64,000 nt of DNA from a virus (IMGVR_UViG_3300032401_000008:1-64000), one strand, 5' to 3'. Numbered from the stretch's first letter, positions 6,351 through 61,525 are shown. A program made the numbers and translations. The notes: generated by a model not told the origin, from the letters alone.

Positions 6351-6377
6351 TAATCCTCCTGTTATCTAGGAGTATTA
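6351..6377 (-). promoter_or_regulatory. Hairpin over the recA ribosome-binding site
   Basis: Bases 6351-6360 pair with 6368-6377 (nine pairs, one C/T mismatch at 6355/6373), leaving a seven-base loop at 6361-6367. The 3' arm on the minus strand contains AGGAGG, the recA ribosome site. The 5' arm overlaps the -10 element at 6374-6379, so transcripts started there would lack that arm, whereas read-through transcripts from the polymerase gene would keep it. Confidence 0.55.
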
Positions 6378-6384
6378 TACACAG
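6374..6384 (-). promoter_or_regulatory. Phage-type promoter of recA (CTGTGTATAAT)
   Basis: Reads CTGTGTATAAT on the minus strand in the 64-base gap between polymerase and recA, 28 bases ahead of the recA ATG. The same word recurs at 9696-9706 and 24148-24158 and, with small changes, elsewhere. No -35 hexamer is evident. Confidence 0.6.
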
Positions 6385-6409
6385 AACGTAGCTGGGTTAG
6401 ATATTAATT

Positions 6410-8917
6410 TTAGTCTTTAACAGACGCAAAAGTACCAAAAGTTTTTCCTACCTCAAAATCAAGCTGCATTTTACACTTTAACTCTGTAAATTCTGTCTTC
6501 ACAACTTCTTCCATTATTCTAATCATATCTGTTACTTTATCATCTTTAACCATAATAAAATTTGCGTCATGAACTGTAGCTACTGGATAACACTCTATAC
6601 CTTCTTCTCTGGCGCGAATAATGCTCATTCGCATATAGTGGTTGTTCAAGTCTGTGCTTAACCCTTGAATAGGGGAGTTAACAGCCTGTCTTTCAGCCTC
6701 AGCAGCTACTCCTGGCTCATTGCTATCAATTTCTGGAAGTCTACGGTATCTACCGAGATAACCTCTAACATATCCGTGTGATTTAACAAAATATTTTTGA
6801 CTAGTAATCCACATTTTTGCTTTGGGGTATCTTGAAAAGAAAATATTTTTTATGTCTTCCGCTTGCTCGTAAGAAATATTATACTGAGAAGCAATTGCTG
6901 CTGCACCTCTTCCGAAAAGAATACCAAAGGTTGCTGCTTTCGCGGCTGTTCTTCTTGGGTCATCTTTTGTTATTTCCTCTATCGGAACACCAAAAACCTC
7001 AGAGGCTGTTCTCTTATGAATGTCTAACCCTGAATGAATATCTGCAATTAAATCTTCGTCACCAGAATAACTAGCCCAACATCTAAATTCTGCTTGTGCA
7101 AGGTCTGCCTTTACAAAAGTAAACCCTGGGTCGGAAATAAAACATTTCTTGAAATCTTTCGCGTCTCTAGGCAGATTTTGTAGATTGGGGTTGCGAGAGG
7201 CCAAACGGCCAGTTACGGTTCCGGTTTGCAAAAACTCCCCATGAACTCTTCCATCAAAAGCAGATTTTTCATAAGTAGAAATAAGATACGTGCTAAGGTA
7301 TTTTACTAATTTTCTATAGTCTAAAAGTAACTGCGCTACACCTACGCCCGCCTTATCCAACTCCTCTAAAACAGACTCGTCTACACTTATTGCGCCCTTA
7401 TCTGTAACCTTTATTGGTGCCCTTTTAGGGATTTCAAAGAGAAGTTCTCCAAGCTGTTTTGGAGAAGACATGTTAAACTTATAATCTTTTTCTTTTATAG
7501 CTTGTTCCGCATAAGTATCAAAATCTGCGTATCTTGACTTAAGTATCTTAGAATCTTCAAATTTACTTCTTATAGCTTCTTTTGCATGTTCTTTTCTATA
7601 TTTTTCATACTCTAAAACTTCTGAATTCTCATAAACTTTGACTTCAAACTCTTCTTTCTTTTTAGTATATTCTTCTATTAGGTTTTTTAGTTGATCTCTA
7701 TCACAAGCTATCCCTAGGTGTTCCATTTCTACAATAACAGATAAATATGGAATAACATAATTATAATAGAGATTGCTTAGTTTTTGCTGCTCTAATCTTG
7801 GATAAAGAGTAGAGAATGCTTGCAAAGTAGCATCTGCATCTTTACCGTTGTAAGGTAATAGAATTTTTTCAGGGATCAAATTGTAAGTAAATTTATCTTT
7901 TTCTAACTTATTATCTTTACAATACTTTTCTATAAATAGATCTATTTCTTTCCAGTATTCACCCAACTTAGTAAACCTAAGAGTGAGAACATCCAACCCA
8001 TGTTTGCTATTTTCATCTAGTAAATGATGAATTAGCATAGTATCTTCATAAGGAGGATTTAATTCTAAATTATTAGCCTTGCAAATGTGCATCTCAAATT
8101 TTATATTTTGTGCTATCTTAATTATGTTTTTGTTTGCTAAAATATTATTTAGCCTTTTAAGGGTTTCTTTCGTATGCAACGCCCATGGAATAACTGTAGC
8201 TGTACCTGCTTTCCAAGAAAAGGCAATGGATAAGATCTTTGCTTCTAAATAGCGCAGGCTACTTGTCTCAAAGTCGAAGGAAAACTTTTTTACTCCTTCT
8301 AATTTTTCTAATATCTTATTAATATCTTCTTCGTTTTTTGCCGTAAAAACTTTTGTCTCTTCGGTATCTTGCCCCTTGCCGCTAAGTTCTTTAGCTAAAA
8401 GTTCAAACCCTTTTTTGATTGCAGGAATAACTCCTGGGTTTCTTAGTCCATAAGCAGGATGGTAAATTGGAAGAACTTTTACATTAAATTCTTCAGAAGT
8501 AAAAATATTATTGTTTATTGTTGCAATACCAGTCCTATTTAGAACTGCTTCAAGAGCTTTTGCACCAAGGGTTACAATAATCTCTGGTTTTACTTCTTTT
8601 ATTTCTTCGATAAGGTACTGTTTACAAATCTTTATTTCTTTTTTAGAGGGTGGGGCATTCTCGCCCGGTGTTCCACATTTTACTGCGTTTGTAATATAAA
8701 TTTGCGAGCGATCCAACCCTGCTGCTCTAAGACAATCATCAATCAAATTACCAGAAGCTCCAACAAAAGGAACACCAACCTCGTCTTCTTTTTGTCCTGG
8801 GCTTTCCCCTACGATCATAACCCTAGCAGGAATCGGACCAACCCCAGGAAGACAAGGTGTTCTAACCCCGTTGTTATAACGCGGGCACTTTTCAGAACAG
8901 AATTGTTTCAACTCCAT
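6410..8917 (-). CDS. Uracil-DNA glycosylase / family A DNA polymerase fusion
   Basis: 835 residues from the ATG at 8917 (a GTG at 8929 lacks a spaced ribosome site). Residues 1-178 are a family 4 uracil-DNA glycosylase: iron-sulphur cysteines C7, C11, C81 and C98, GESPG at 37-41 and HPAY at 153-156. Residues 205-375 are a 3'-5' proofreading exonuclease with D215/E217, N271-KFE and Y356-D360. Residues 390-835 are the polymerase: motif A D605...E610, motif B R656-K660-F664-G, motif C H783-D784. Oddities are Glu for Asp in exo II (E275) and VHDA instead of VHDE in motif C. This is the replicative polymerase; the glycosylase domain could remove or sense uracil. Phage SPO1 polymerase is the namesake of a similar fusion. 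Confidence 0.95.
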   Translation of the reverse strand: MELKQFCSEKCPRYNNGVRTPCLPGVGPIPARVMIVGESPGQKEDEVGVPFVGASGNLIDDCLRAAGLDRSQIYITNAVKCGTPGENAPPSKKEIKICKQYLIEEIKEVKPEIIVTLGAKALEAVLNRTGIATINNNIFTSEEFNVKVLPIYHPAYGLRNPGVIPAIKKGFELLAKELSGKGQDTEETKVFTAKNEEDINKILEKLEGVKKFSFDFETSSLRYLEAKILSIAFSWKAGTATVIPWALHTKETLKRLNNILANKNIIKIAQNIKFEMHICKANNLELNPPYEDTMLIHHLLDENSKHGLDVLTLRFTKLGEYWKEIDLFIEKYCKDNKLEKDKFTYNLIPEKILLPYNGKDADATLQAFSTLYPRLEQQKLSNLYYNYVIPYLSVIVEMEHLGIACDRDQLKNLIEEYTKKKEEFEVKVYENSEVLEYEKYRKEHAKEAIRSKFEDSKILKSRYADFDTYAEQAIKEKDYKFNMSSPKQLGELLFEIPKRAPIKVTDKGAISVDESVLEELDKAGVGVAQLLLDYRKLVKYLSTYLISTYEKSAFDGRVHGEFLQTGTVTGRLASRNPNLQNLPRDAKDFKKCFISDPGFTFVKADLAQAEFRCWASYSGDEDLIADIHSGLDIHKRTASEVFGVPIEEITKDDPRRTAAKAATFGILFGRGAAAIASQYNISYEQAEDIKNIFFSRYPKAKMWITSQKYFVKSHGYVRGYLGRYRRLPEIDSNEPGVAAEAERQAVNSPIQGLSTDLNNHYMRMSIIRAREEGIECYPVATVHDANFIMVKDDKVTDMIRIMEEVVKTEFTELKCKMQLDFEVGKTFGTFASVKD

Positions 8918-8972: not shown

Positions 8973-9674
8973 TTAGGAAACTAACTTCCACTTCTTCTCG
9001 TCGTTTGCAAGAATTCCACTCTTCTTAAGCACACTTAGTTGAACAGAAATATGTGCTTCTAGCCGCTTTAGATCCTCTGGCGCGGTACCTCTAGCGCTAG
9101 CAACTACCATTGTAATGTCTTTACGGGTCATTTCCCCGCGTTCTTTTAGTGTATCAAGAACAAGGGTTCGAACAGACTTTTGGTTAGAACCGGACTCTTC
9201 TTTTACGCTTCCGTCTTCCATAATTTTCTCCTCTTCTCTTACTGTTTCTGATACAGCTTCAGTGATTATTTCAGGTACGGTTTCAAGCACTGGCTCTGGC
9301 TCTGGCTCTGGCTTACACACCGGGCTTGGCACAGGTTCTACAACAACGTCAGAAGTACTTTCTTCTTCCAAAAAGAGAGAAGCAGCAATAACTAACTCGT
9401 TTTTCTCTTCTTCAGGAACAGCTGCCTCAACAACAAGTTCTGTAGCATCTTCTTCTTTTCGAATATCCTCTAAAATCTCAGCCTCTACTGGATCCTCTTC
9501 AGATCCAACATACGGACGTAACGGATAATTAAGTGGGACTTGTGTAACTCTATCTGTAGCCAATACCCTAAGAGAAACTTCATTTTTTATAGAAACAATT
9601 TCTACTAGTTTATCTAATCTGGTCACATAAACTTGTCCTACGGTAGTTTCTTTAGCGGGAATATAGTCATGCAT
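8973..9674 (-). CDS. Likely internal gene: C-terminal winged-helix fragment of the sigma-like protein
   Basis: An in-frame ATG at codon 167 of the sigma-like gene is preceded by AAGGAG with a nine-base spacer and, upstream of that, by CTGTGTATAAT at 9696-9706. The product would be 233 residues: a small beta-like domain, the acidic linker and the winged helix, without the sigma-like part. The signals are as good as those of stand-alone genes here, so a shorter isoform is well supported at sequence level, though expression is unproven. Confidence 0.5.
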   Translation of the reverse strand: MHDYIPAKETTVGQVYVTRLDKLVEIVSIKNEVSLRVLATDRVTQVPLNYPLRPYVGSEEDPVEAEILEDIRKEEDATELVVEAAVPEEEKNELVIAASLFLEEESTSDVVVEPVPSPVCKPEPEPEPVLETVPEIITEAVSETVREEEKIMEDGSVKEESGSNQKSVRTLVLDTLKERGEMTRKDITMVVASARGTAPEDLKRLEAHISVQLSVLKKSGILANDEKKWKLVS

Positions 9675-10172
9675 TTTTTTATTCTCCTTTGCTCTATTAT
9701 ACACAGAATTTAATGGCTTCTTCGAGTAAAAAACAAAGTCGGAATCCAAAATCTTAGGTAGCGCACGGGATTCTCCTTCATTATCAACTTGGAGCGCCTC
9801 AAAAGAAGAGCTAATAACGTTTAGTTTTCCTTTATCAGAAAAAAGATAGCGAGCACGGTTGGTTAAGGAGTTGTTAGTTTTCAAGTTTAATAGATAAGTA
9901 AAATCATTTCCTAGGGGGCGAGGACCATACTTTCTAAAAGCAACCCAAACAGACGATAAGACATCGAGATAAGCATCTTCTGGATCCCATCTTCCAAACT
10001 TATACAAAAATTGACGTTCAGATTTATAGGATGCTTTTTTTACATAATTAGAAATTAGTTTAATAAACTTTTCTTCCTTTTTAGAATCAAATATCCATTG
10101 GTACCCATGCCCATCAACAGCAATGGAGGACATATCATCAGCGAGGTTCTGTATTTCTTCCTTTTTCCACAT
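8973..10172 (-). CDS. Sigma-factor-like / winged-helix regulatory protein
   Basis: 399 residues. Residues 35-125 resemble sigma-70 region 2 (YLDVLSSVWVAFRKYG, then a NSLTNRAR helix), which in sigma factors binds core RNA polymerase and the -10 element. Residues 167-225 form a small beta-like domain, 226-330 an acidic Glu/Val/Pro linker with EPEPEP, and 333-399 a winged helix. The ATG at 10172 has GGAGG upstream and overlaps the primase-like gene by 35 bases. Inside the gene, a TGTGTATAAT word, AAGGAG and an in-frame ATG at 9674 suggest that residues 167-399 are also made separately. The sigma assignment is inference from pattern only; an alternative is a phage transcription modulator. Confidence 0.55.
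   Translation of the reverse strand: MWKKEEIQNLADDMSSIAVDGHGYQWIFDSKKEEKFIKLISNYVKKASYKSERQFLYKFGRWDPEDAYLDVLSSVWVAFRKYGPRPLGNDFTYLLNLKTNNSLTNRARYLFSDKGKLNVISSSFEALQVDNEGESRALPKILDSDFVFYSKKPLNSVYNRAKENKKMHDYIPAKETTVGQVYVTRLDKLVEIVSIKNEVSLRVLATDRVTQVPLNYPLRPYVGSEEDPVEAEILEDIRKEEDATELVVEAAVPEEEKNELVIAASLFLEEESTSDVVVEPVPSPVCKPEPEPEPVLETVPEIITEAVSETVREEEKIMEDGSVKEESGSNQKSVRTLVLDTLKERGEMTRKDITMVVASARGTAPEDLKRLEAHISVQLSVLKKSGILANDEKKWKLVS
9696..9706 (-). promoter_or_regulatory. Phage-type promoter word inside the sigma-like gene
   Basis: CTGTGTATAAT on the minus strand, identical to the recA and HD-gene copies, within codons that read SVYN. It lies 21 bases from the internal ATG at 9674. Confidence 0.55.
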
Positions 10173-14800: not shown

Positions 14801-14829
14801 AATATACAGGACGGTTAGCGGGTTGTCAA
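14801..14829 (-). promoter_or_regulatory. Near-consensus sigma-70 promoter for the replication block
   Basis: On the minus strand TTGACA (14824-14829) is followed after exactly 17 bases by TATATT (14801-14806). It is the best full -35/-10 promoter I found. The -35 box overlaps the stop codon of the upstream glycosyltransferase gene, so it can start a new leftward transcript at the border between the sugar and replication blocks. Confidence 0.75.
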
Positions 14830-15629
14830 GAAGAAAGTTCGCTTAACGCCTTCTTTTTTTCCTTCAGCAGCTTGAAAGCGCGTCTGTGCATGCTGTCAAC
14901 ATCCATTCTAGTGGCCTTGAAGGTAGTTCTATGCTTGTGAAAAACAAAGGATCCTAGGCTCAACATCACCTTAAAACCAGCAGTACGAAGCACAGAGCAG
15001 TAGTGGTCATCCTCTCCCAAACCCATTCCAAAGTCTTCGTCAAGAAAACCCAAATCAGAAAATGTTTTTCTTTGAAAAGCTGCACAAAAAAAGGCTAAAG
15101 GAATTTTGCCTACATCAATGTATTTATCTTTATTGCTTTCATACAGTTTTCTAGAATAAGCTTCTACCCCATCTTGATAACGAGGCAAGTTCAAATTCCA
15201 ACGTAAGTTCAAATTCGTAGCTTCTTGCCAAGAAATCCTTGAATTTGTTACAGGACCAACAACTCCAATTTTTTCTTCCGTAACAAAAGGTTTTATTAGG
15301 GCTTGGTCCCAACGATAACCAACTTCAGTATCATTATTCAATAAAATTACATAATCCCCCTCAGCTTCTTTTATTCCTTGATTTGTAGCCTTTACGAAGC
15401 CTAAATTCCTTAGATTCTTTACTAATTTAGTATGGACGTTTGGTTTTTTTGCCTGCCTTAAAATTAATTTAAATTGATCTACTGAAGAACCATTGTCTAC
15501 CCAAACGATCTCGTAGGGAATAGTAGTGTACTTACGAATACTAGAAAAGCATCTTACTGTAAGTTCAGATTGGTTATATACAGGTACTACAATACTAATA
15601 ATAGGTTTAAATCCATCTTTATGAGGCAT
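14826..15629 (-). CDS. Family 2 glycosyltransferase
   Basis: 267 residues with the GT-A fold pattern: VVPVYN at 14-19, WVDNGS at 43-48, a nucleotide-sugar/metal motif LLNNDTE at 96-102 and the acceptor-side MGLGEDDHY near 220. There is no membrane segment, so it should act in the cytoplasm. It would transfer one sugar from a nucleotide donor; donor and acceptor cannot be read from sequence. It is the last of seven sugar-transfer genes read leftwards. Confidence 0.88.
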   Translation of the reverse strand: MPHKDGFKPIISIVVPVYNQSELTVRCFSSIRKYTTIPYEIVWVDNGSSVDQFKLILRQAKKPNVHTKLVKNLRNLGFVKATNQGIKEAEGDYVILLNNDTEVGYRWDQALIKPFVTEEKIGVVGPVTNSRISWQEATNLNLRWNLNLPRYQDGVEAYSRKLYESNKDKYIDVGKIPLAFFCAAFQRKTFSDLGFLDEDFGMGLGEDDHYCSVLRTAGFKVMLSLGSFVFHKHRTTFKATRMDVDSMHRRAFKLLKEKKKALSELSS

Positions 15630-15646
15630 AAGCTAACTCCTAAAAA

Positions 15647-16396
15647 CTAAACATGCTTTTTTCCACAAGCACGATTAAGCTCTTTGTCTTTCCAAGCTCG
15701 TTTTTCTCGTGTATCTCGTCCGTAATGAACTACCAAATCTCCTAACGAGCTAGGGCTAAAATAACCTATTGTATATCCCTGCTTAGCTGCTGCACAACTT
15801 ACAGCATAGTCTACTCCGTATTTTAGTCCCTTTGGGTGTCCTCCTAGAGATAAAAAAGTATCTTTTCTAGACAACCTACAAACCCCATTTATCATCCACT
15901 TATTAGGGTTAAAAGATATAAGAACTTTTCCTTTATTTTTTATTTCAACAATTTTTCCCATTGGGGGTTTATACAACTTAAGCCCAGATCTTGTTGCAAA
16001 GGTTCCACCATTCCAAGACATATCCCAACCCAAAAAGGCTATCTTTGGATCATCCAAATATTCATAAATTTTTACTAAACGAGACCCAAATTGTTTTGGA
16101 ACATCTACGTCATCATCTACTTTCAATATGTATTTTCCTCTGGCATATTCTGCTAAAATATTAGTTGCTTCAACACCTAAGTTATCGTCTAAACAAACAA
16201 CCTTATGTACTCTACAATCCGCCATCCCATATGAGTATACCCAATCACAACTACCATCTATGGACCCGTTATCGCAAAGTAAAACCTCAAAAGGAATATC
16301 CCCAACAGAATCTACTATTTTTGGTATATAGTTACTTGACAGATCTATTCTGTTGTGGGTCAAAATAAGAACAGAAAGTGTTGGGCAAGTTAACAC
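15647..16396 (-). CDS. Family 2 glycosyltransferase
   Basis: 249 residues, GT-A fold: LILTHNR at 10-16, CDNGSIDGS at 41-49 and KVDDDVDVP at 92-100, the DxD-type metal site. The C-terminal part has a GVDYAVSCAA segment in place of the usual ED motif and a basic Cys-containing tail. It overlaps the next upstream gene by seven bases. No membrane segment. The acceptor is unknown. Confidence 0.85.
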   Translation of the reverse strand: MLTCPTLSVLILTHNRIDLSSNYIPKIVDSVGDIPFEVLLCDNGSIDGSCDWVYSYGMADCRVHKVVCLDDNLGVEATNILAEYARGKYILKVDDDVDVPKQFGSRLVKIYEYLDDPKIAFLGWDMSWNGGTFATRSGLKLYKPPMGKIVEIKNKGKVLISFNPNKWMINGVCRLSRKDTFLSLGGHPKGLKYGVDYAVSCAAAKQGYTIGYFSPSSLGDLVVHYGRDTREKRAWKDKELNRACGKKHV

Positions 16397-17316
16397 AGGG
16401 TTTTTAAATAGGTTTCAAAGTTCTTTGAAATTACATCCCAAGAAAATCTTTCTTCTTTTGCTGTCTTTAATCCTCCTGCTTTTAGCTTTTTGCACAAAGC
16501 AGTATTGTTTAGTAGCGTAGAAATTCCATGTTTAATTCCTTCTACGGTCCTTTTTACAACAAAGGCATTTACGCCATTAATCACATAGTCTCTACTACCG
16601 CCGTCATCCGCAGTTACAACGGGGCAACCACAAGCCATTGCTTCCAATTGGGTTAAAGAAAAGCCTTCTGCCTGGTTTGCGCAGCAATACAAGCTAGAAT
16701 GATTATACAGAGTATACAAACCTTCTTGCGTAGTATTTGTTCCTTCCATCTTTAGATATTTTATATTCGGTAAACTATGAACGGCTTTTAGAATAAGCTC
16801 TGTTCCTTTCCAAGGACGAGCAGACCCGTAAAGTAAAACGTGGTATGCTTTAGGTATTTTTTCATCACACTTAAAAAGACTAGGGTCTATTCCTCCAGGA
16901 AAAACAGGTATATCATACTTTACCTTTACGTATTTAAGAATGTACTCTTTTGTAAAAGTAGAGTTAGTAGCAAGGTGAAATCCTTGCCGTAAAGCAGCAA
17001 GAGGTATATCCGGGTTTTTATAAAGCCCTTCAGGAGCTAAAACCCAAAAAACTTTTGCTTTTGCTTGAACAGCTAAAACCTCCCTGTACTGCTCTGCTAA
17101 GTTGAAAATTACTACATCTGCTTTGGAATAACTACTCAGTTTACTTATTTTATGTGTTGGTATTTTATTATGCAGCCAAAGACACGGGGTGCCTTTTGGA
17201 GTAAAAATTCTAACTTCATGTCCATATTTTTGAAGTCTATTAGCTACTTCTATAATTCTACGAATCCCACCGACAACTAACAAATGGGGTTCTATAAAGT
17301 ATATAATCACGAGCAT
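16390..17316 (-). CDS. Family 4 glycosyltransferase
   Basis: 308 residues with GT-B fold signs: GG at 16-17 in the N-terminal Rossmann lobe, then a C-terminal lobe with LLYGSARPWKGTEL at about 161-174 and the retaining-enzyme EX7E motif E217GFSLTQLE225 before MACGCPVV. It overlaps the adjacent family 4 gene by ten bases, and the two look like diverged paralogues. Confidence 0.88.
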   Translation of the reverse strand: MLVIIYFIEPHLLVVGGIRRIIEVANRLQKYGHEVRIFTPKGTPCLWLHNKIPTHKISKLSSYSKADVVIFNLAEQYREVLAVQAKAKVFWVLAPEGLYKNPDIPLAALRQGFHLATNSTFTKEYILKYVKVKYDIPVFPGGIDPSLFKCDEKIPKAYHVLLYGSARPWKGTELILKAVHSLPNIKYLKMEGTNTTQEGLYTLYNHSSLYCCANQAEGFSLTQLEAMACGCPVVTADDGGSRDYVINGVNAFVVKRTVEGIKHGISTLLNNTALCKKLKAGGLKTAKEERFSWDVISKNFETYLKTLC

Positions 17317-18928: not shown

Positions 18929-18938
18929 AAAAAATATC

Positions 18939-19493
18939 CTAAAATAGAGAACTGTCTAAACCCATGTCTTTTATGTATTTATCCAACGCCTGTATTTTAT
19001 TTTTTGCTAAGTCTAACTTTTTGTTGTTAAGTCTTGCCTCTATAGCCATTCCAAATTGGCATAAAGCAAAAGCGTCTACCTCGTCTGTTGTTTTTAAAAC
19101 TTCAGAACCTTTGCCATAAGCACGGTAAACATACTCTCTCATTAAATCTTTAGGTGCAATTCCTTTTCCAATTATAAACTTTTTCAAAACAGTAGGTGGC
19201 ACAATAAAAAATTTATACTCTTCTTCGAATAATTTTACTTTTAAAACTCCACCCAACTCACCTAAATCAAATACTCTGCCTCGCGCACCAAAGGCATACC
19301 CCTCATAAAAAATATAATTTGGCTTATGCTCCACTAAAATAGAAGTTACCTTATTTCTAATTTCTATAAGTCTAGCTTCTCCTCTCTTTGTGCTTTTAAT
19401 GGCAAAAGATTCAAGATAGTCTGACTCTTCGTTGTTGGTAATACATACCCCAGTAGAAGAAAGCGACGGGTCTATACCACAAAACTTAAGCAT
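18939..19493 (-). CDS. RuvC-like Holliday junction resolvase
   Basis: 184 residues with the RNase H-like RuvC core: GIDPSLSSTG with catalytic D8, FYEGY with E64, and TTDEVDAFAL with D137/D140. RuvC-type enzymes cut four-way junctions and here would resolve branched, recombination-made DNA before packaging, together with RecA and the SF2 helicase. It is embedded in the glycosyltransferase block and shares its transcript. Confidence 0.88.
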   Translation of the reverse strand: MLKFCGIDPSLSSTGVCITNNEESDYLESFAIKSTKRGEARLIEIRNKVTSILVEHKPNYIFYEGYAFGARGRVFDLGELGGVLKVKLFEEEYKFFIVPPTVLKKFIIGKGIAPKDLMREYVYRAYGKGSEVLKTTDEVDAFALCQFGMAIEARLNNKKLDLAKNKIQALDKYIKDMGLDSSLF

Positions 19494-24147: not shown

Positions 24148-24158
24148 ATTATACACAG
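24148..24158 (-). promoter_or_regulatory. Phage-type promoter of the HD/dNMP kinase/sugar block
   Basis: CTGTGTATAAT on the minus strand, identical to the recA copy, 41 bases ahead of the HD-gene ATG. No matching -35. Confidence 0.6.
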
Positions 24159-24405: not shown

Positions 24406-24411
24406 ACGGTA

Positions 24412-24421
24412 GTATACACAG
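24412..24421 (-). promoter_or_regulatory. Phage-type promoter word facing the hairpin cluster
   Basis: Minus-strand CTGTGTATAC followed by T, one base different from the recA copy. Nothing protein-coding lies within 300 bases downstream. Confidence 0.45.
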
Positions 24422-24497: not shown

Positions 24498-24507
24498 ATA
24501 ATACACA
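24498..24507 (-). promoter_or_regulatory. Second leftward promoter word, TGTGTATTAT
   Basis: Minus-strand TGTGTATTAT, a variant of the phage promoter word, 77 bases upstream of the copy at 24412-24421. The same ten bases also occur at 34681-34690. Confidence 0.35.
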
Positions 24508-24658: not shown

Positions 24659-24668
24659 TGTGTATAAT
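24659..24668 (+). promoter_or_regulatory. Phage-type promoter of the rightward virion block
   Basis: TGTGTATAAT ends 15 bases before the ATG at 24684, giving a very short leader in which AGAGAG is the ribosome site. A weak TTTTCA lies 17 bases upstream of TATAAT. Confidence 0.55.
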
Positions 24669-36419: not shown

Positions 36420-36429
36420 TGTGTATAAT
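36420..36429 (+). promoter_or_regulatory. Phage-type promoter of the baseplate J / fibre genes
   Basis: TGTGTATAAT, identical to the word at 24659-24668, 14 bases ahead of the ATG at 36444, again with GAGAGAG between. Confidence 0.55.
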
Positions 36430-50645: not shown

Positions 50646-50655
50646 CGTGTATATT
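50646..50655 (+). promoter_or_regulatory. Phage-type promoter word CGTGTATATT
   Basis: GTGTATATT at 50647-50655, a close variant of TGTGTATAAT, 29 bases ahead of the ATG at 50685, with TGGAG as ribosome site between. No -35. Confidence 0.5.
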
Positions 50656-51913: not shown

Positions 51914-52429
51914 ATGAAAAAATTAATATTGTTTCTTGCCTTCTTTGTTGGGTGTTTTTCGTTTATTCAAGCAGACACAGGAAGGGCGGCTAATCTTCCC
52001 ATTAGAAGCACATCCATTACAGATGGAAATTCTAAAGCTATTCGTTCAACCGCTCTTGGAGATCTACTAACCATAGGGTATCCTTTGCTGCTTTCTGTTA
52101 ATGCTTCTAACTGTGTAGCGGCAACTGCGATCAGCACACAGTTTACACTACCAACTACCCCAAGTAAAGTATTTAGAATCTGTGGCGGCGGCGGTCTTTC
52201 GTCCTACGCTTTTATTTCTTGTGGGACGAACCCAACGGCTACAACAACCGCAGCTAGCGGGTTTGTACTGCCTCCTTTAGCAGACGGACAATGCCTGCCC
52301 GCCATGGAAATACAGGCGGCAAAATGTGCAGTGATAGGAGGATCTTCTGTTGGAGGAGCCTCCGCAGCTGGTGGGGCGGTATGCTTTCTTCAGCTGGTTA
52401 ACCCCACTGGACTTCCTGTAGGGTCGTGA
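51914..52429 (+). CDS. Exported protein of unknown function, first gene of the secreted pair
   Basis: 171 residues with a clear signal peptide: MKK, hydrophobic 4-18, then FIQA with a cut likely after A20; C14 after VG gives a near-lipobox as an alternative. The mature part is Gly/Ala/Ser-rich beta with several Cys (C48, C69, C82, C101, C110, C129 approx). The stop overlaps the GTG/ATG start region of the next gene. The GC-richer composition begins here. Confidence 0.65.
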   Translation: MKKLILFLAFFVGCFSFIQADTGRAANLPIRSTSITDGNSKAIRSTALGDLLTIGYPLLLSVNASNCVAATAISTQFTLPTTPSKVFRICGGGGLSSYAFISCGTNPTATTTAASGFVLPPLADGQCLPAMEIQAAKCAVIGGSSVGGASAAGGAVCFLQLVNPTGLPVGS

Positions 52430-52431
52430 AT

Positions 52432-55353
52432 ATGATGCGTACTGCAATAGTCTGTTTGCTTTTGCTTGTAGGACTAGCTGCAAAAGCAAATGACGATGAA
52501 GAAGGATATTCCCCAAACCTGCTGGTTATGTCCTATGATTTTACATACAACGGTAGATACACTACCTATAGTGGGATACCTTCTGGTTGTTGGACATTCG
52601 AAACTTCTGTTGGGGCGACCCTGCCCGCTGAATGCGCCGGGACTACTGTGCTTACCGTCGCAGGTAATCCTAGCAAAGTAACCGATGCGACCTATCCTAC
52701 CGGAATTGGAGCCACTTCTCCGCAAGGCTACGCCTATCGCCTGGACGGAACCGGAGACTATCTCTCAGTTTCTAATGGCGCGGGCGGATCAATATACAAC
52801 CCAGCAGGAGCATTCAGCATCTTTGTTGTAATAACACCGACTACAGGATTTACTACCGGGGATACAATTGTGTCCAAAGGCACGCCTACTGCCAACCAGC
52901 GCGGATGGCGCTTATATGCTAGCACGGCTACTACGGCTGCGTTTGCTGTCACTGATGATGGAACTTCTGGTGTTGGGCACATGACAACACTTACTAGATC
53001 TACAGCTTTTGCAGTCGGACGCCAGGCGTGTATTGTAGCCAGTTATTCTGGTGGAGTAGATGGTGCAATATCTGGCTTTTTGCTGGTTGACTCACTAGCG
53101 GCTACAACTAGTGCTGTCATGGATGGGCCTGTCTACGCTAATTCTGGGCCACTAACTCTAGGTGCGGATGGCGATACTACCGGGGATGCACCAATGGAGA
53201 TACACCATTTCGAGTACCTAGGGGGTGCAGCTCTAACTCAGGCCGAAGCACTTTATAAGTGTAGATACTGGTACGGGACTACTGCCGTTAAAGGATCAGC
53301 ATTGGCTATCACCTATTCAGTACCCGCAGCTTTTCCTTATGCTCCTCCTGATTCAGGGACTGAGCCTTGGCTGCTTACCCCCGCACCTAACTGCGCACGG
53401 GTTGGATCACCTGAAACTGGTAGAGGGGGCCTCTACGGTAGCTCGTCAATAACAAACAACCTGTACAGGGCGCAGATCTGCAAGACCGTCTCTGGAGGTC
53501 ACCCCTCTACAGGCGGTTGGGCAGTTCCAACTGAGGCTCCTGGGGATGGGTCTGCTGATGTGGTCTGTAGTACTACGAGATATGCTGAGGGCTATGAATC
53601 CCTGCGAATGGACCTAGTGGGTACAACCAGCGTGGCGCAGCAATGTTCGATTTGTTACACCTCTGCATCCGTAATTGCGGCCAAAACATATTTTAGTGCT
53701 CAAGTTTTACCCTCTGCTAACTCGACCCCAGTATTGACCCTAGAAGAATACGATACGGCGGCTTGTGGCACCTTGCTGGCGACAAATACTGCGACCTTGG
53801 TACTGGACACACCTGGCTGGGATTCCTATGGTGGGGCTATTGCGGCGGCGTCTTGGAACGCCTCCACCTCTAGTTATCGGATTTGCATGACTGAAACTTG
53901 TAATGGGGGCTGCACAACATATTGGGACGCTCCACAACTGCGGGCCTCAGGTACCCCGTCTGGGACCAGCGCTATCCCAACAGACGGGTTCTGCGGCGGG
54001 AATGCAGATTCGACAGCAGCTTGTGGACCCAGCAACTACGCTTTCGTAAACCCAATCCCTCCAGTTGGAAAATTTGAGATCGAACAGGTTCGGTCGTCAC
54101 CGTCAGACGGTACCGATACAGTATATACTTTGGTGGTCCCAAAAACTGGGGGGTCCTTTAATAACAGAATACAATGGGTGTTCTCTACCTTCACCCTGTA
54201 TGATTCTTTGGGCGTAGCCCATTCTGTATCTCCAGGGGTCTCATATAGTTATGCGAGCAACCATGAATTCAAAGCTGTAGCCTGGAGAGATACAAACCTT
54301 ATAGTGTCTACATCGGTTGACGACTATGAAGACGGAACTGTATTCTCTGGAGGAGCAACCGATGCTATGTCTGCAACTGGCTATATTGGAGGTACTGCCG
54401 CTAATTATAATGTCTGGACTAGATACCTGAAGATCCGCAAGAAGGTTACCGGAACTACTCTTAGTGGAGATCCCAACTGGTATCCTGACACCAACTATTG
54501 GTCGGTGGTTCAACTGGCAGACACACAGATTGTGGCAGAGTCCTGGCCTGCGGAACTAGCTCCTCAAGTTGAGTGGATCATAAACCACGCTACAGAACAG
54601 AAAACAGGAATGGTCATGCACCTAGGTGACGTAGTTAACACCGAGAATATAGTAGCTCAATGGACTGTCAGTGACACAGAGTTTTCCAAGTTTGATGCAG
54701 CCTCTTTAGCCTGGATGGTAACTCCTGGCAACCACGATTACGTAACCCCTTGGTCCTCTGATCCTTCAGCGGTGCCAACAACTTTTCTATCGTACTTCGG
54801 TCCAACGCGGTTCGAGCTAAAACCATACTGGGGTGGGCGCAGCCTCAACGAATTAAATACTTGGACAACAATTAGTCTAGGGGGAGTTACTTATATATTC
54901 CTTATGCTTGAGTTAGACACTCCCGCAGCTGCTATCACATGGGCAGAGTCTATTATCACTGCTCACCTCGGTGTGCCTGTGATTGTTGGGACTCACCAGT
55001 ATCTTCTCGACAACACACAGGCACGAAGCACAGTACCTGTTATTCGTACTGGCGGGGTTGGTGGAGACACATTATGGGCTATGCTAAAAACCCACGATGA
55101 AGTTAGAATGGTTTTGTGTGGTCACTATGTTAATGCTAGTGGTGATGGGCACTTAACTTCACTCAATGATGCAGGACACGATGTTCACCAGATAATTTCC
55201 AACTACCAAGAGCGTTACCACGGAAGTAATCAGCTTGTTCGGTTGTATAGAATATATCCAGCCCTCAATATGATGCAAGTTAGAACTTATTCGGTTAGGA
55301 CAGGCATGTGGGGCTTAGGATCACTAGAACGTTGGGATACCACTTGGCGATAG
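52432..55353 (+). CDS. Secreted LamG-like / metallophosphoesterase protein
   Basis: 973 residues from the ATG at 52432 (TAGGG eight bases upstream). Residues 1-19 are a signal peptide cut near AKA. About 50-270 is a LamG/concanavalin-like sandwich, 300-520 more beta domains with Cys pairs, and 690-960 a calcineurin-like phosphoesterase: D697 in LADTQ, D733 in LGDVV, N767-H768 in GNHD, H855 in GTHQY and H898 in GHY. The first metal motif reads D-x-Q rather than D-x-H. Base composition reaches about 55% GC in places against 25-35% around it, which points to acquisition from another source. A signal peptide on a fibre-block protein is unusual. The substrate is unknown. Confidence 0.75.
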   Translation: MMRTAIVCLLLLVGLAAKANDDEEGYSPNLLVMSYDFTYNGRYTTYSGIPSGCWTFETSVGATLPAECAGTTVLTVAGNPSKVTDATYPTGIGATSPQGYAYRLDGTGDYLSVSNGAGGSIYNPAGAFSIFVVITPTTGFTTGDTIVSKGTPTANQRGWRLYASTATTAAFAVTDDGTSGVGHMTTLTRSTAFAVGRQACIVASYSGGVDGAISGFLLVDSLAATTSAVMDGPVYANSGPLTLGADGDTTGDAPMEIHHFEYLGGAALTQAEALYKCRYWYGTTAVKGSALAITYSVPAAFPYAPPDSGTEPWLLTPAPNCARVGSPETGRGGLYGSSSITNNLYRAQICKTVSGGHPSTGGWAVPTEAPGDGSADVVCSTTRYAEGYESLRMDLVGTTSVAQQCSICYTSASVIAAKTYFSAQVLPSANSTPVLTLEEYDTAACGTLLATNTATLVLDTPGWDSYGGAIAAASWNASTSSYRICMTETCNGGCTTYWDAPQLRASGTPSGTSAIPTDGFCGGNADSTAACGPSNYAFVNPIPPVGKFEIEQVRSSPSDGTDTVYTLVVPKTGGSFNNRIQWVFSTFTLYDSLGVAHSVSPGVSYSYASNHEFKAVAWRDTNLIVSTSVDDYEDGTVFSGGATDAMSATGYIGGTAANYNVWTRYLKIRKKVTGTTLSGDPNWYPDTNYWSVVQLADTQIVAESWPAELAPQVEWIINHATEQKTGMVMHLGDVVNTENIVAQWTVSDTEFSKFDAASLAWMVTPGNHDYVTPWSSDPSAVPTTFLSYFGPTRFELKPYWGGRSLNELNTWTTISLGGVTYIFLMLELDTPAAAITWAESIITAHLGVPVIVGTHQYLLDNTQARSTVPVIRTGGVGGDTLWAMLKTHDEVRMVLCGHYVNASGDGHLTSLNDAGHDVHQIISNYQERYHGSNQLVRLYRIYPALNMMQVRTYSVRTGMWGLGSLERWDTTWR

Positions 55354-55379
55354 CCTAAAAAGTTTTCCAGTTTATTAAC

Positions 55380-55420
55380 TAAAAGTTGCAAATGGTACAA
55401 TAATTAGGAAAATCTATGTC
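55380..55420 (+). repeat. 41-base direct repeat, copy 2
   Basis: Repeats the end of the Cys-rich gene and the start of paralogue 1, here right after the phosphoesterase gene and running into paralogue 2. Confidence 0.9.
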
Positions 55421-55898
55421 GCTAAAAAAGTTTAACTGGGATGAAGATGAAAGTCTTTCTATTGATATAACACAATTAGGGGGGAATACTATTGCAACAG
55501 GATCAGGAGAAGTTACCGCAGGAACAATAAGAGTTGCAGTAGCATCGGAGAATAGCTCACTAGTATCAGAAACTGATCAAACAGCAGGCACTTACCATTA
55601 TTATATAGATATGTCTGGTTATAATAAGTTAAGTTTACAATTATATCTACCTACGTTTACAGCAGGATCTACAATAAAAGTGTATGGAACTAATCAAAGT
55701 AACGAGGCAGCTGACTCATGTGTTTACGGCGATATAACCTCCTCGGTATTTGGTATAAATAGTGTCATATCAACATCTTTCCTTGTAGATGACGTTGGTA
55801 CTTGTGGAATGTTTCGCTTTATACGAGTAACAGTAGCAATAGGTGCGGGCGGAAGTGGAATTGATGATTATACTATTTGGAGCAAGAAGTCTAACTAA
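55416..55898 (+). CDS. Small decoration- or receptor-type protein, paralogue 2
   Basis: 160 residues. The same plan as the gene at 51360: start MSLKKFNWD, an inserted variable part (about 12-50), then YHYYIDMSGYNKLSLQLYLP, STIKVYGTN, VGTCGMFRF and YTIWSKKSN. Its first codons and ribosome site lie in the 41-base repeat. Likely a virion surface protein. Confidence 0.6.
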   Translation: MSLKKFNWDEDESLSIDITQLGGNTIATGSGEVTAGTIRVAVASENSSLVSETDQTAGTYHYYIDMSGYNKLSLQLYLPTFTAGSTIKVYGTNQSNEAADSCVYGDITSSVFGINSVISTSFLVDDVGTCGMFRFIRVTVAIGAGGSGIDDYTIWSKKSN

Positions 55899-55913
55899 CA
55901 AAGAGCTTACACA

Positions 55914-55988
55914 ATGGCTTCTATAGTAAGTCAGAGAACAGTTCAAATTGTTAAAGGAATCCTTTCAAGAAGGCTTTTTGAAACGTAG
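55914..55988 (+). CDS. Very short basic peptide, doubtful
   Basis: 24 codons starting MASIVSQRTVQIV between paralogues 2 and 3, with AGAG upstream. It may be a leader peptide or chance. An AAAGG-AAT-CCTTT hairpin lies inside it. Confidence 0.25.
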   Translation: MASIVSQRTVQIVKGILSRRLFET

Positions 55989-56004
55989 AGATTAAGGAGA
56001 TATA

Positions 56005-57264
56005 ATGTCAATTGCTAAATTTAGTTGGGACGCTTCTGGCGCTACAGGTACAGCGATTATACAAGGTGAGTATACACCTCCAGCGGGTGATACGCAAATA
56101 ACTAATATACAAACAGATATAACCGGAAGATTAATTGTAGCTGGTGGCAGCGATGCTAATATCGTAGAGATTGGCGGTAACGCAATTGGTTCTGACGCAG
56201 GAGCCAGTACTGCGGGTACCTTGCGAACCGTAACTGCAAGCGATTCACCCGAGGTGACAGCACTGCAAATTATTGACGACTGGGATGAGGGTGACAGAGC
56301 CAAAGTCAACGTGATAGTTGGGCAGGCTGGAATAACCGCAGGTGTGGGCGCCGTAGCAGCTAACACCCCTCGCGTGACTCATGCCTCGGATGATCCTGTT
56401 ACGACCTCTGTGCAGATTATGGACGACTGGGACGAATCAGACCGCGCCAAAGTAAATCTTATTGCTGCTCAAGCAGGTATCACTGGTGGAAACGGCGCCG
56501 TAGCAGCTAACACCCCTCGCGTGACTCATGCCTCGGATGACCCCGTAACCACCGCTGTGCAGATTATGGATGATTGGGATGAATCGGACCGCTGCAAAGT
56601 CAACATCAATCTAAACGCAGGTGTGGCAGTATCGGTGAACTCAGGAGCTACTGATGCAGGGACTATCCGTGTTACTCTAGCAACAGACGGGCCTATTGGC
56701 TCTTGCACAAATACCGATGATTCAGCTATCGGAACTAAGGGTCTATCTATCGTCGCCAAAGCCAAGACCGCTCAGAGAGCAGCCGTAGCTGATGTTGACG
56801 CAGTACAAATAGTTTCTAATGAGTATGGTGAGTTAGTTGTCTCTGGTCATACTTGGGCTACTAGGTCTATTCGCTGTGAAGAAATTGACCCGCTCGATCA
56901 AAAGTATGTTGGTGAAACTATTGCAGTAGTAACAAATGCTACAGGCGCACCAACTACTTATAACTACTATGTTGATATGGGTGGATATACAAGTATTGGT
57001 TTCCAATGGGTATTATCTTTTAGCGCGGGAAGTACAATAAAAGTATATGGTTCACTACAAGATGATGGAACAGCTCCCGCTAGCTGCTCGTATAGCGATT
57101 TAACTACTGCCCTTTGGGGTGTAGCTTCAATAACCGCTAGCGGAACTAACTTTGATACTACGGGAACACTCGGTTTATGTAAATATGTGAAAATAGAAGT
57201 AATTATTGGTGTTGCGGGATCGGGGGCAGACGATTATACAATTTATTGTAAAAGAGCTTGGTAA
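56005..57264 (+). CDS. Decoration- or receptor-type protein with tandem repeats, paralogue 3
   Basis: 419 residues. Start MSIAKFSWD, like paralogues 1 and 2. Residues 90-215 are tandem units of about 49 residues with VQIMDDWDESDR, AGITxGxGAVAANTPRVTH. The last 120 residues repeat the paralogue C-domain (YNYYVDMGGYTSIGFQ, STIKVYG, YTIYCKRAW). AAGGAGA precedes the ATG. A longer arm built from the same tip domain. Confidence 0.65.
   Translation: MSIAKFSWDASGATGTAIIQGEYTPPAGDTQITNIQTDITGRLIVAGGSDANIVEIGGNAIGSDAGASTAGTLRTVTASDSPEVTALQIIDDWDEGDRAKVNVIVGQAGITAGVGAVAANTPRVTHASDDPVTTSVQIMDDWDESDRAKVNLIAAQAGITGGNGAVAANTPRVTHASDDPVTTAVQIMDDWDESDRCKVNINLNAGVAVSVNSGATDAGTIRVTLATDGPIGSCTNTDDSAIGTKGLSIVAKAKTAQRAAVADVDAVQIVSNEYGELVVSGHTWATRSIRCEEIDPLDQKYVGETIAVVTNATGAPTTYNYYVDMGGYTSIGFQWVLSFSAGSTIKVYGSLQDDGTAPASCSYSDLTTALWGVASITASGTNFDTTGTLGLCKYVKIEVIIGVAGSGADDYTIYCKRAW
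56347..56540 (+). repeat. 147-base tandem repeat within paralogue 3
   Basis: 47 identical bases at 56347-56393 recur at 56494-56540, a period of 147 bases (49 codons). The bases between are diverged but encode the same protein pattern. The two identical stretches keep the same codons, implying recent duplication or gene conversion. Confidence 0.85.
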
Positions 57265-57289
57265 ATACTTTTATATTTAGGAGCTAACC

Positions 57290-58066
57290 ATGGCAGATCT
57301 AATTGCAAGTCAACTAGTTAACTTAGACAATAGGGTATCCCTGGGACTTTCTGGAACAATTGAATCAACGAATTATGTACTAGAAGTTATAGAAAATCAC
57401 TTTCATACTGCACAACAGTGCTACGGTGCTTCTAGTAATAACTTCTCACGAGGGTCTACAGCAGCCTTTACTATCAACGCTGGAAGCGGAGCCTATGCCG
57501 AAGAAATCCAGCTTCACGACGGTACAGTAATAGAATCAGGAAGCACTACTAAGTATTTTGATATGAATACAATATATGCCTATAGCGTTGCTACAGCAAA
57601 TAGACTTATATTTCTTCAGTTTATGTACGGTACACAAAATACAGGCGTTACATGCACCTTTACAAATGCTACAGAAAAAGTTAACAAGGTTGCCCACGGG
57701 CTAACAAATGATACCAAAATAATGTTCTCCAACACGGGAGGAGCATTACCTACTGGGTTTGTTAACTATATTGTATACTATGTGGTCAATAAAAATAACG
57801 ATGATTTCCAAGTATCTCTGACAATTGGCGGTGCGGCTGTCACCATTTCTGATGATGGATCCGGAACAAATAAATATCACACGCTCAATCAAACTATACT
57901 CACAGAAACGTATATAGGTTTCGCTTCTACTTCTGCCGATTCGTACCCATTTGTTCTAAGCGCACTGAGGACTACATGTAACAATAGAGTATGGGTACGC
58001 GCTAAGGCAGAGGGTGGAACTAACAGTATCACATGTTTGTTTGGATTGCACACATACGGTGCGTAA
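57290..58066 (+). CDS. Virion surface protein, unknown
   Basis: 258 residues, beta-rich with Thr/Asn/Ser-rich strands; no repeats in common with the paralogues. It lies between paralogue 3 and the LamG-like proteins. TTAGGAG precedes the ATG. A decoration or fibre part is likely by position. Confidence 0.6.
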   Translation: MADLIASQLVNLDNRVSLGLSGTIESTNYVLEVIENHFHTAQQCYGASSNNFSRGSTAAFTINAGSGAYAEEIQLHDGTVIESGSTTKYFDMNTIYAYSVATANRLIFLQFMYGTQNTGVTCTFTNATEKVNKVAHGLTNDTKIMFSNTGGALPTGFVNYIVYYVVNKNNDDFQVSLTIGGAAVTISDDGSGTNKYHTLNQTILTETYIGFASTSADSYPFVLSALRTTCNNRVWVRAKAEGGTNSITCLFGLHTYGA

Positions 58067-58104
58067 TGCGTATTTTAAATTAGGCTATTTTAGGAGACAC
58101 ATAG

Positions 58105-58152
58105 ATGCATAGCTTTGTATTGTTTAGTATGCCTGCCTCAAATGAGGTATAA
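58105..58152 (+). CDS. Fifteen-codon leader-type peptide, doubtful
   Basis: ATG at 58105 preceded by TTAGGAG, then MHSFVLFSMPASNEV and a stop two bases before the GTG of the LamG-like gene. The ribosome site is good for so short a frame, which may couple translation of the following GTG gene. Confidence 0.3.
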   Translation: MHSFVLFSMPASNEV

Positions 58153-58154
58153 CC

Positions 58155-60161
58155 GTGGCCCTAATCGATACCTTAAGATCGAGTGGTGCGCTGGTACTTT
58201 ACCTTGACCTACGCTCAGGTAATACCTATGACTACAGTGGAAATGCTGCTACTGTTACGCTGACAAGTCCTATTTGGAATAGCCGGAACGGATTGAGTTT
58301 TGCTGGTAGTACGTCAAAAATAGTAGTCACCGATAAAGCTAGTCTTAGATTAACGACTGGGTCTATCGTAGCGCTTAGCATGTTTAAAATAGTCTCTGGC
58401 TCACCACAAATAGTAGATAAATCATCTGCTGGTGGAATCAATTATAGGTTTTATTTTGACACAGCAAATATATATTTACAAGATAATACTGTAAGCAGAT
58501 CCATCGCCTATTCGTCTATAGCTGGAAAGAAATCCTTGGCAGTCAACTTCGGTGACGGAACAGCACCAGAGTTTTTCGTTAACGGAGTCAGTATAGGATC
58601 GGCAGTAGGAAATAACACAGTTTCAACTACTGTAGATAACGTAACTATAGGTAACGCCTACGATAGTTCTAACCATTTACGTAATAATCTAAGTGCTGTT
58701 GTTATTATCAACCGTAAACTAACAGCAGCAGAACACGCTCAAATATTTGGTGAACTACAGGCCATGAAGTGGCCCACTAAAACCATTTCTAGAATAAAGC
58801 CTGTCAAAAACATAGGGCTACCCGAAGCTAACTTACTTAGCGCGTTTGAGTTACAGCAGAATGGTGCTACAGTATATGATAACGGTTCGGTAATGAATAA
58901 TGCTACAAACATAGGTCCACCTTGGTTCAGTAAAGACCGCATGGGTAAAACGGCTGAATTTTATACTCCAATTAACAACGGATCCATTCAGAATGCTGAT
59001 AACGCCGCATATACATTTGAATTCCCGGTAAGTATGTCGGCCTGGTATAGACCCAAAACCGTTGGATCCCCCACCCAAGCCCAAATAGTAGGCAGAGGTT
59101 ATAGGTCTGTGGAAGGTTCTACTTCACCACTCAACCAAGGTCTCTATGTGGCGAGTGACCAAAAAGCATATTTCAAAATGAATTCAAGCAATCTAAATCT
59201 GGGCTGTGCTGCCGCTGATATCTTTCGGGTTGGCGTCTGGACACACGTAGCAGCTACTTATGACGGTGTAAACGCTACACTTTATATCAATGGTCAGCAA
59301 TCAGCTCAAACACCGTACTCCACGGCTTGGGTAGAGACAAACAGGCGAATAGTTATAGGCGGTGAAATCTCTGCTGCCGGTGAATGCCCTGGGCACATAG
59401 CAGACTGTAAATACTATCAGCGAGCGCTGAGTGCTGCTGAGATACTACAGGAGTATAAACGTGGAGCACCGGCAGGCTTTACGGTCGGAGCCGCTAAGCA
59501 ACAGTCACTAGCAGCTACGGGTAATATCCTTTCCAACTTCTGGACAAACAGAACTTCAACCGGTGTTACTGGAGTAGAAGTATCGGGTGCGAAAATAATT
59601 ACCTATGCTCAGGCTAGCGCTGCAAGCATACTTAGGTTAGTCTCTTATACAACGTCCAATAGATTAAGTTCAACTTATGGCACTTCTTGGCCTGGTCAAA
59701 TAACTCGCGGACAAGCTTGTTTTGGTACCTGGCAGTGGTACATAAATAAAACGTCCGACACGTCAACCGTGCGGCTAGTGCCTATGCTAAACTCTTCTTC
59801 TGAATGGGATAGTGGTGGGGGTGTAAACGGTTACCTGTTAGAAATAGATGCAAACGAAGCTATCGGAGTATACAGAGTAACCACAGCGGCCAAAGCAAGC
59901 ACAATTATGGTATCGGCCAATGGCTATATTACGCGCAACGTCTGGCACAAGATCAAACTAACACGCGCCGTCAAGGGTACTTTTACTCTATACGTTGATG
60001 ATGTACTTGTTCCCGCTAGCGCAGGAGCTAATCCGGGTTCGGACACCACTTATCTTACGGGAGTTGACATAACCCAGGTTAGCTTAACAGACGGGGACAA
60101 ATTTGCTTTGTCATGCAATACAGGGGCATGTAATTTCCTTCATAGTTACGGGGTGATATAG
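58155..60161 (+). CDS. Fibre-block protein with two LamG-like domains
   Basis: 668 residues. Residues 5-215 and 225-445 are concanavalin-type sandwiches, each opening with a DYSGN or YDNGS turn and containing GxWTHVAATYDG...LYINGQQ, the LamG core. Residues 455-668 form a third beta domain. LamG folds bind glycans. GTG start with GAGGT. It ends directly before the next gene. Confidence 0.75.
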   Translation: MALIDTLRSSGALVLYLDLRSGNTYDYSGNAATVTLTSPIWNSRNGLSFAGSTSKIVVTDKASLRLTTGSIVALSMFKIVSGSPQIVDKSSAGGINYRFYFDTANIYLQDNTVSRSIAYSSIAGKKSLAVNFGDGTAPEFFVNGVSIGSAVGNNTVSTTVDNVTIGNAYDSSNHLRNNLSAVVIINRKLTAAEHAQIFGELQAMKWPTKTISRIKPVKNIGLPEANLLSAFELQQNGATVYDNGSVMNNATNIGPPWFSKDRMGKTAEFYTPINNGSIQNADNAAYTFEFPVSMSAWYRPKTVGSPTQAQIVGRGYRSVEGSTSPLNQGLYVASDQKAYFKMNSSNLNLGCAAADIFRVGVWTHVAATYDGVNATLYINGQQSAQTPYSTAWVETNRRIVIGGEISAAGECPGHIADCKYYQRALSAAEILQEYKRGAPAGFTVGAAKQQSLAATGNILSNFWTNRTSTGVTGVEVSGAKIITYAQASAASILRLVSYTTSNRLSSTYGTSWPGQITRGQACFGTWQWYINKTSDTSTVRLVPMLNSSSEWDSGGGVNGYLLEIDANEAIGVYRVTTAAKASTIMVSANGYITRNVWHKIKLTRAVKGTFTLYVDDVLVPASAGANPGSDTTYLTGVDITQVSLTDGDKFALSCNTGACNFLHSYGVI

Positions 60162-61463
60162 ATGTCTCTCCTAAATAAATACAGTACGCCCGCAGAAAGG
60201 CAACGCAAGTGCTCGTTCGCTGAGCGCTTTGACGGACCAGCAGAAGTAGCTAGGAATGGCGGAGTTCCTACCGGATCTGTTACATGGGTTAATAACGGTC
60301 TACAGCTTAATACAACAACATCCTATGTTGAGTATTCAACCCGTTCTGCAAACGCGAATCAGCCCTGGACAGTATATGGGGGAGTCGTTGAATTTACTCC
60401 TACCTTTGCTCCTGATGATGGCCTTTCTCATTACTTGGTCTCAACTTCAGCTAACTCATACGGGGTCTATAAGCACTCTGCCAGCTCACTTCGGGTTCTA
60501 GTCGGCGGAACACAGGTTATTAGTGCGGCGATTGCTGAGTATTCCGCTTACTGGAAAATAAACGAAGTAAACCGATTAGCCTGGGCTTGCATAAATGCGT
60601 CTAGCTATCTATACCTAAACGGCACACTAATCAAATTCTCTAACACCGCATGGACTGCGGCAGCAATTACATCCTTCACTATCGGAGCCAGCGCAAACTC
60701 CTTTGTTGGCATTATTCATTCGGTAAAGATTTTTACTTCTGCGTCAACAGCTCAAAACCTTACAACCAGAGACTTAGAAGTCCTAAGTGCAGGTACTACT
60801 TACACTTATTGGCAATCTGCTACTTGTATTATGGACGGTATGGCTGCAAATTACGACATAGCAAACTATAGACACCTGGATCTATCTGGCAATGGTAATC
60901 ACGTTTTGCTTGGAAACGGGGCAGGCACAGGTACGCCGACAAAGCTATCGACACAGGGTTATAACTTTGTCTCTGCTAGTTCCCAGTATATGTCTGTACC
61001 TTTAGCCGCATGGCCTGGAACTGCCGGGACCCTGTTGCTTGATGTGAGCGTGAGCACGAACGCTGCAGCCCATAGCCTATTTGGAACAGATCATACTAGT
61101 GGCGGGAACTTCGAAGTATTTTCTAGTGTCTCAGGGGCAAATGACCGGATTATTATGGGTAACGGTACCGGACAAACCGCGTGCAACTTGGGAGCAGACT
61201 TTAGGTGGAATAAAATTATAGTAGGCACAACATGGCTAACTAGTAGTACCGTCAAGGGCTACACACAGGGGGCATTTGTAGCCTCTAGCAATATCGGGGC
61301 TACAACACCTTACACACCTACTACCTCCTGGTGGCTTGGAAGGTATGATTCTTCCTATCTCACGGGCACCCTGCGTAGCTTCCTATCTTTCTCTCGTGAA
61401 CTAAGTTCTATTCAAATCGCTGACGCAACATTACAAATGCAAAAGTGGAGAAATAAAATTTAA
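60162..61463 (+). CDS. Fibre-block protein with two LamG-like domains
   Basis: 433 residues. Two concanavalin-type halves (about 35-210 and 230-430); the second opens with DLSGNGNHV and ends SFSREL followed by an IADATLQMQKW helix that matches LamG C-caps. It is coupled to the preceding LamG-like gene with no gap. Probably a surface or glycan-binding part. Confidence 0.7.
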   Translation: MSLLNKYSTPAERQRKCSFAERFDGPAEVARNGGVPTGSVTWVNNGLQLNTTTSYVEYSTRSANANQPWTVYGGVVEFTPTFAPDDGLSHYLVSTSANSYGVYKHSASSLRVLVGGTQVISAAIAEYSAYWKINEVNRLAWACINASSYLYLNGTLIKFSNTAWTAAAITSFTIGASANSFVGIIHSVKIFTSASTAQNLTTRDLEVLSAGTTYTYWQSATCIMDGMAANYDIANYRHLDLSGNGNHVLLGNGAGTGTPTKLSTQGYNFVSASSQYMSVPLAAWPGTAGTLLLDVSVSTNAAAHSLFGTDHTSGGNFEVFSSVSGANDRIIMGNGTGQTACNLGADFRWNKIIVGTTWLTSSTVKGYTQGAFVASSNIGATTPYTPTTSWWLGRYDSSYLTGTLRSFLSFSRELSSIQIADATLQMQKWRNKI

Positions 61464-61515
61464 TTTTTTAGCTAACAACCCCTCTAAAATTAATCCCCTC
61501 CAAAACCCAAAATCT

Positions 61516-61525
61516 TGTGTATATT
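61516..61525 (+). promoter_or_regulatory. Phage-type promoter word TGTGTATATT
   Basis: One base different from TGTGTATAAT, 23 bases ahead of the ATG at 61549, with CAGGAG between. No -35 is present. Confidence 0.55.

Follow-up and report, generated by a model that had tools for sequence, protein, structure and literature searches.

A recurring TATAAT-centred word without a −35 element and a candidate sigma-like gene in an uncultivated contractile-tailed phage

What reads a promoter that offers a −10 element and nothing at −35? This question is raised by a ten-base word, TGTGTATAAT, that recurs ahead of genes in the left 64 kb (the window, 64,000 bases of analysed DNA) of a 67,857-base IMG/VR phage record. 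The genome encodes a contractile tail, a family A DNA polymerase, UvsX, a DnaB-like helicase, a primase, a RuvC-like resolvase, a ribonucleotide reductase and a ligase, and its left end carries a truncated ORF that, judged by eye, resembles a large terminase. From a 0.5-kb intergenic region one block of genes runs leftward (24.1 to 3.4 kb) and another rightward (24.7 to 46.9 kb), with smaller units besides. There is no multisubunit RNA polymerase of the jumbo-phage type among the annotated proteins, an Rfam search gave no match, and a genome scan with the sheath alignment, run as an attempt at host assignment, found no relative.

The initial annotation had listed copies of the word and counted seven ahead of start codons. 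That count holds, at the distances given in Table 1, and consists of five exact copies and two TGTGTATATT-type variants (50646 and 61516); at the first of these variants, GTGTATATT occupies 50647-50655. The 11-base form CTGTGTATAAT is found on the minus strand at 6374-6384, 9696-9706 and 24148-24158, and the first of these sites faces uvsX (5323-6345). Nearly all of the listed sites were confirmed, with two corrections: TGTGTATTAT, which had been placed with the plus-strand sites, lies on the minus strand, and an exact copy at 5164 had been overlooked.

Table 1. Copies of the word and associated features, in window coordinates
Feature	Position	Strand	Context
TGTGTATAAT	6374..6383	−	28 nt before uvsX ATG (6345); followed by Shine-Dalgarno ACAGGAGG
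TGTGTATAAT	9696..9705	−	Within ORF 8973-10172; 21 nt before in-frame internal start 9674, Shine-Dalgarno AAAGGAG
TGTGTATAAT	24148..24157	−	41 nt before first gene (24106) of 20-kb leftward operon
TGTGTATACT, one mismatch	24411..24420	−	Upstream tandem site, divergent intergenic region
TGTGTATTAT	24498..24507	−	Upstream tandem site
TGTGTATAAT	24659..24668	+	15 nt before ATG (24684) opening rightward structural operon
TGTGTATAAT	36420..36429	+	14 nt before baseplate gene (36444)
CGTGTATATT, variant	50646..50655	+	29 nt before ATG 50685, divergent intergenic gap
TGTGTATATT, variant	61516..61525	+	23 nt before ATG 61549
TGTGTATAAT, sixth exact copy	5164..5173	−	Within ORF 5008-5310, 130 nt before gene starting 5033; doubtful
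Sigma-region-2-like half of ORF 8973-10172	9675..10172	−	Segment found after region 2 in relatives is absent
C-terminal half of the same ORF	8973..9674	−	Conserved domain, acidic linker, winged-helix-like end; conserved internal start
TTGACA-17-TATATT	14801..14829	−	Ordinary sigma-A type promoter, gap before helicase gene

The word is more frequent than composition predicts. The exact form occurs six times in the 67.9-kb genome against 0.35 expected under an order-3 Markov model, one-mismatch sites number 19 in the window compared with 7.6 after shuffling, and among the 98 TATAAT hexamers of the genome the commonest prefix is TGTG (six; the next reaches three). Enrichment over shuffled sequence, which the initial annotation had named as a check, is strongest next to genes: windows 8-45 nt before 78 start codons, a set that includes the internal start at 9674, added after inspection, hold five exact copies on the correct strand, versus 0.004-0.007 in dinucleotide shuffles, and only one of 2000 permuted words does as well there. 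This start-proximal position is the stronger evidence, since the raw 10-mer count becomes marginal once every 10-mer is corrected for. That marginal count, together with the fortuitous look of the copy at 5164 and of two intergenic near-copies antisense to their surroundings (34681-34690 and 66805-66814, both on the minus strand), is what can be said for chance recurrence in an AT-rich genome, an explanation that the excess before start codons makes barely credible. It is also highly improbable that the word is the binding site of another phage regulator, or a replication element, and not a −10. Four copies or near-copies do cluster at 24.1-24.7 kb, where the divergent region might contain an origin, but the orientation of the sites, their spacing of 14-41 nt to starts, the TATAAT core and the copies far from that region argue against it. 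A promoter class with a −10 alone is very probably real, with transcription predicted to begin at these sites.

The absence of a −35 hexamer noted at first reading is borne out. The best matches to TTGACA at spacers of 15-19 are on average no better than those at random AT-matched positions (P=0.29), and no site beats such DNA; the site at 24659 has weak matches, TTTTCA at 17 nt and TTCAAA at 15 nt. Statistics and relatives together make a promoter class without a −35 well supported. To call it phage-wide was too strong, because about seven start sites carry the word and several transcription units do without it, for example 1047-3447 and 50622-46878. The almost leaderless mRNAs suggested at first reading for the two spacings of 14-15 nt would have leaders of about 8-9 nt, given a transcription start 7 nt past the hexamer. 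A host-type promoter class is present in the same genome, as seen from TTGACA-17-TATATT at 14801-14829, downstream of which lie the genes for a helicase, DnaB, primase, the sigma-like protein and polymerase. The TGTGTATAAT class is distinct from the TTGACA class, which has one promoter here and is clearly separated in a relative, contig G014.

Relatives were collected as ten contigs at 54-62% identity by a sheath search and two more by an alignment search. Those that are syntenic have 30-62% protein identity, and G006 (121 kb) and G015 (145 kb) share most gene order with this phage. In the syntenic relatives the ten-base word is not conserved; in those sharing the sheath the exact word is not enriched, and the start-linked sites of G006 contain no TGTGTATAAT. 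Searches for relatives close enough for footprinting gave just one near-identical contig with the baseplate protein (L008), and none or one distant contig with the polymerase and nucleotidase. We compared, across twelve genomes or fragments, TATAAT followed by a Shine-Dalgarno and ATG with all other TATAAT; a simple script assigned the gene starts of the relatives, which makes individual sites there provisional. The clearest upstream difference is a G at −13, found in 38/77 start-associated hexamers versus 24% of the others (chi-square p=5e-5), and it remains when this phage is left out (34/67 versus 146/611, p=8e-6). In G014, the TTGACA promoters carry TATATT/TATACT or TACAAT, with G at −13 in 0/8, versus 7/9 of the exact TATAAT sites, which lack TTGACA (Fisher about 0.002, calculated by hand). 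The G014 contig yielded no sigma homologue; since it looks like a fragment with no polymerase gene, it was set aside as a test of a class without a sigma.

The canonical extended −10 element, TGnTATAAT, requires TG at −15/−14. In the word, TG stands at −16/−15 and at −14/−13, directly before TATAAT; with this shift of one base, TGTG does not qualify as the canonical extension. Nor is that extension favoured in the phage group, where it precedes 2/77 start-associated and 24/699 other TATAAT, and it was rejected as a candidate. The promoters resemble canonical extended −10 promoters in having a strong −10 and no −35, and differ in the TG being out of register and in TGn being unenriched in the phage group.

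The site at 9696 pointed to ORF 8973-10172, whose first 166 residues are about 32-43% identical to homologues in G006, G007, G013 and G015. The AlphaFold model of this half has a pLDDT of 70.5, and its more probable PDB matches are almost exclusively sigma factors (best E 0.012): sigma-B and sigma-H models, sigma-32, sigma-S, SigI, sigma-28 and the SigE N-terminal domain. The entries ‘RPSB’ and ‘RPSH’ we take to be Bacillus sigma-B and sigma-H. Sequence-level searches for sigma recognition gave nothing above the cut-off in PHROGs, Pfam and PDB profiles, and no PHROGs or Pfam match to a sigma or gp55 family even at E 10. The L049 homologue matches sigma-E region 2 structurally and gives a weak Pfam Sigma70_r2 match (E 0.085). 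With E-values of 0.012 at best and no profile above the cut-off, the assignment to sigma region 2 rests on the consistency of these matches. The relatives carry roughly 70-130 extra residues before the junction between the two halves, a segment absent in this phage and a candidate sigma region 4 only, its model being of low confidence. The winged helix of the C-terminal half was assigned by eye, with weak Pfam matches, and this half could hold an unrecognised polymerase-contacting domain. The sigma-like gene is flanked by primase and polymerase in this phage, G006 and G015; in G007 and G013, too, primase is just upstream of it.

The most likely reading, to which we would give an even chance, is that the sites are read mainly by this putative phage sigma-2 factor on host RNA polymerase. 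The sigma-like protein, as a candidate region-2-only factor, would bind the host RNA polymerase core and read the −10 region alone, as T4 gp55 does. Under this proposal, TGTGTATAAT and its one-base variants would be the −10 elements of the class without a −35, which would drive the leftward replication and rightward structural operons, uvsX, the baseplate gene and two units of the right arm, and the copy inside the sigma-like gene would drive the C-terminal half of that gene. Host sigma would handle a first wave from ordinary TTGACA/TATATT promoters, of which 14801-14829 is one. Two points count against this reading: the sigma gene is itself part of the operon behind the 24148 site and so needs another promoter to start it, and the word stands before replication and structural genes alike, which is no clean late class. 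For the sigma-like protein as reader, which the initial annotation had offered as one option, the case is plausible and circumstantial, resting on a sigma-region-2 fold that lacks the stretch coming next in relatives.

Known phage systems lend this reading its logic. T4 gp55 carries region 2, the late promoters of T4 lack a −35, and the sigma-4 site is taken by gp33 (PMC2988020). The likeness to T4 late promoters, served by gp55 with gp33 and gp45, would be recognition of a −10 alone, with no −35, by a specificity protein reduced to sigma region 2 (PMC2988020); unlike T4, the word here is the host TATAAT preceded by TGTG, an in-frame fusion joins the sigma-like half to a C-terminal half, and the word is not confined to late genes. 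A kayvirus, Staphylococcus phage 515A1, has −10-only late promoters, TGTTATATTA, in which a long −10 box without a −35 is attributed to a phage sigma, beside sigma-70 early promoters with TTGACW (PMC7698491). Its word is another one, and its sites were mapped by RNA-seq, whereas those described here are predicted. Phages phiEco32 and 7-11 also combine a phage-encoded sigma, a short −10-like motif (tAATGTAtA) and host sigma-70 early promoters (PMC4331800), and they differ in motif and genome architecture. The sigma sites of T4, kayvirus and phiEco32 deviate from the host sigma-A consensus, which the word here matches exactly, and this weakens the phage-sigma reading. It is weakened further by the ten-base word being unconserved in relatives, by the missing sigma homologue in G014 and by the weak fold matches.

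A serious alternative, with only slightly less than an even chance, is that host sigma-A reads these sites as ordinary promoters, a perfect −10 and upstream G/TG contacts making a −35 unnecessary, and that the sigma-like protein has another role or none. The Campylobacter jejuni cj0183 promoter contains exactly TGTGTATAAT and its −35 is dispensable: removal of the −35 region cuts activity about threefold and does not abolish it, and replacement of the −16 region abolishes it (PMC3824568). Unlike the sites here, it belongs to a bacterial gene, is read by host sigma and keeps a weak −35-like element at 19 bp. With the identical word at the core of an active promoter, reading by host polymerase is credible, so the earlier suggestion of host polymerase acting through a TGTG extension stands in that part and is unsupported in the usual TGn sense. 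A stronger −10 is also the expected compensation in promoters without a −35, and G014 has the class with no recognised sigma homologue on its contig. Against host sigma are the absence of canonical TGn, unenriched in relatives (2/77), the difference between the G014 classes in hexamer and −13 base, and the sigma-2 fold protein that is encoded and conserved beside the replication genes. Our near-even weighing of the two sets the perfect host hexamer and cj0183 against the logic of T4 and kayvirus.

The conserved internal start is a further point in favour of the phage-sigma reading. In 5/5 phages the C-terminal half opens with an in-frame ATG and a good Shine-Dalgarno. An exact GTATAAT lies before this internal start at 21 nt in this phage, 48 nt in G015 and 105 nt in G007; G013 has TGAGTATATT at 36 nt, and G006 has none. 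Since GTATAAT has a density of about 0.17 per kb and strand (range 0.14-0.20 per kb), a copy no more than 105 nt away should turn up in about 2% of cases, which makes its presence in 2/4 relatives suggestive (about 0.002, a hand estimate made after the fact). A doubtful but possible extension is that this phage group encodes a natural one-chain sigma, made of region 2, an acidic linker and a winged-helix-like half, from which a conserved nested promoter and start would also make the C-terminal half alone, so that one gene would yield a factor and its partner or competitor, reading G-TATAAT promoters without a −35. According to a 2010 review of T4, a naturally fused late sigma was yet to be found.

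Promoters with a −10 alone, read by reduced phage sigma factors, have precedents in a few cultured phages; in the uncultivated group described here, two promoter classes can be told apart and the gene for the candidate sigma has an unusual nested layout. The finding is real and useful, ordinary in kind as phage −10-only promoters go, and the associated gene is unusual. It becomes testable whether loss of everything after sigma region 2 accompanies loss of the −35, and whether nature has a working fused sigma.

Several further features were observed in these genomes. Between the 24411 and 24148 sites, the 247 nt at 24158-24404 (−) fold better than shuffled sequence (z −3.0) and could be a structured leader, a small RNA or an origin element. 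Several glycosyltransferase-like genes cluster at 14826-22989, within the replication block, and a 341-residue protein with a helix-turn-helix domain at its end, possibly a phage repressor, is encoded at 48825-49850 (−). The region 52001-60000, which includes a virion structural protein gene, has a G+C content of 0.44-0.47 versus about 0.36 elsewhere and was possibly acquired recently. In G006, the UvsX homologue has two in-frame insertions and the DNA polymerase one, with intein-like junctions (L025 5130-8246 and 8256-11333), and the alignment of the ribonucleotide reductase homologue falls into two parts separated by about 0.9 kb (L024 16345-19581), perhaps another intein.
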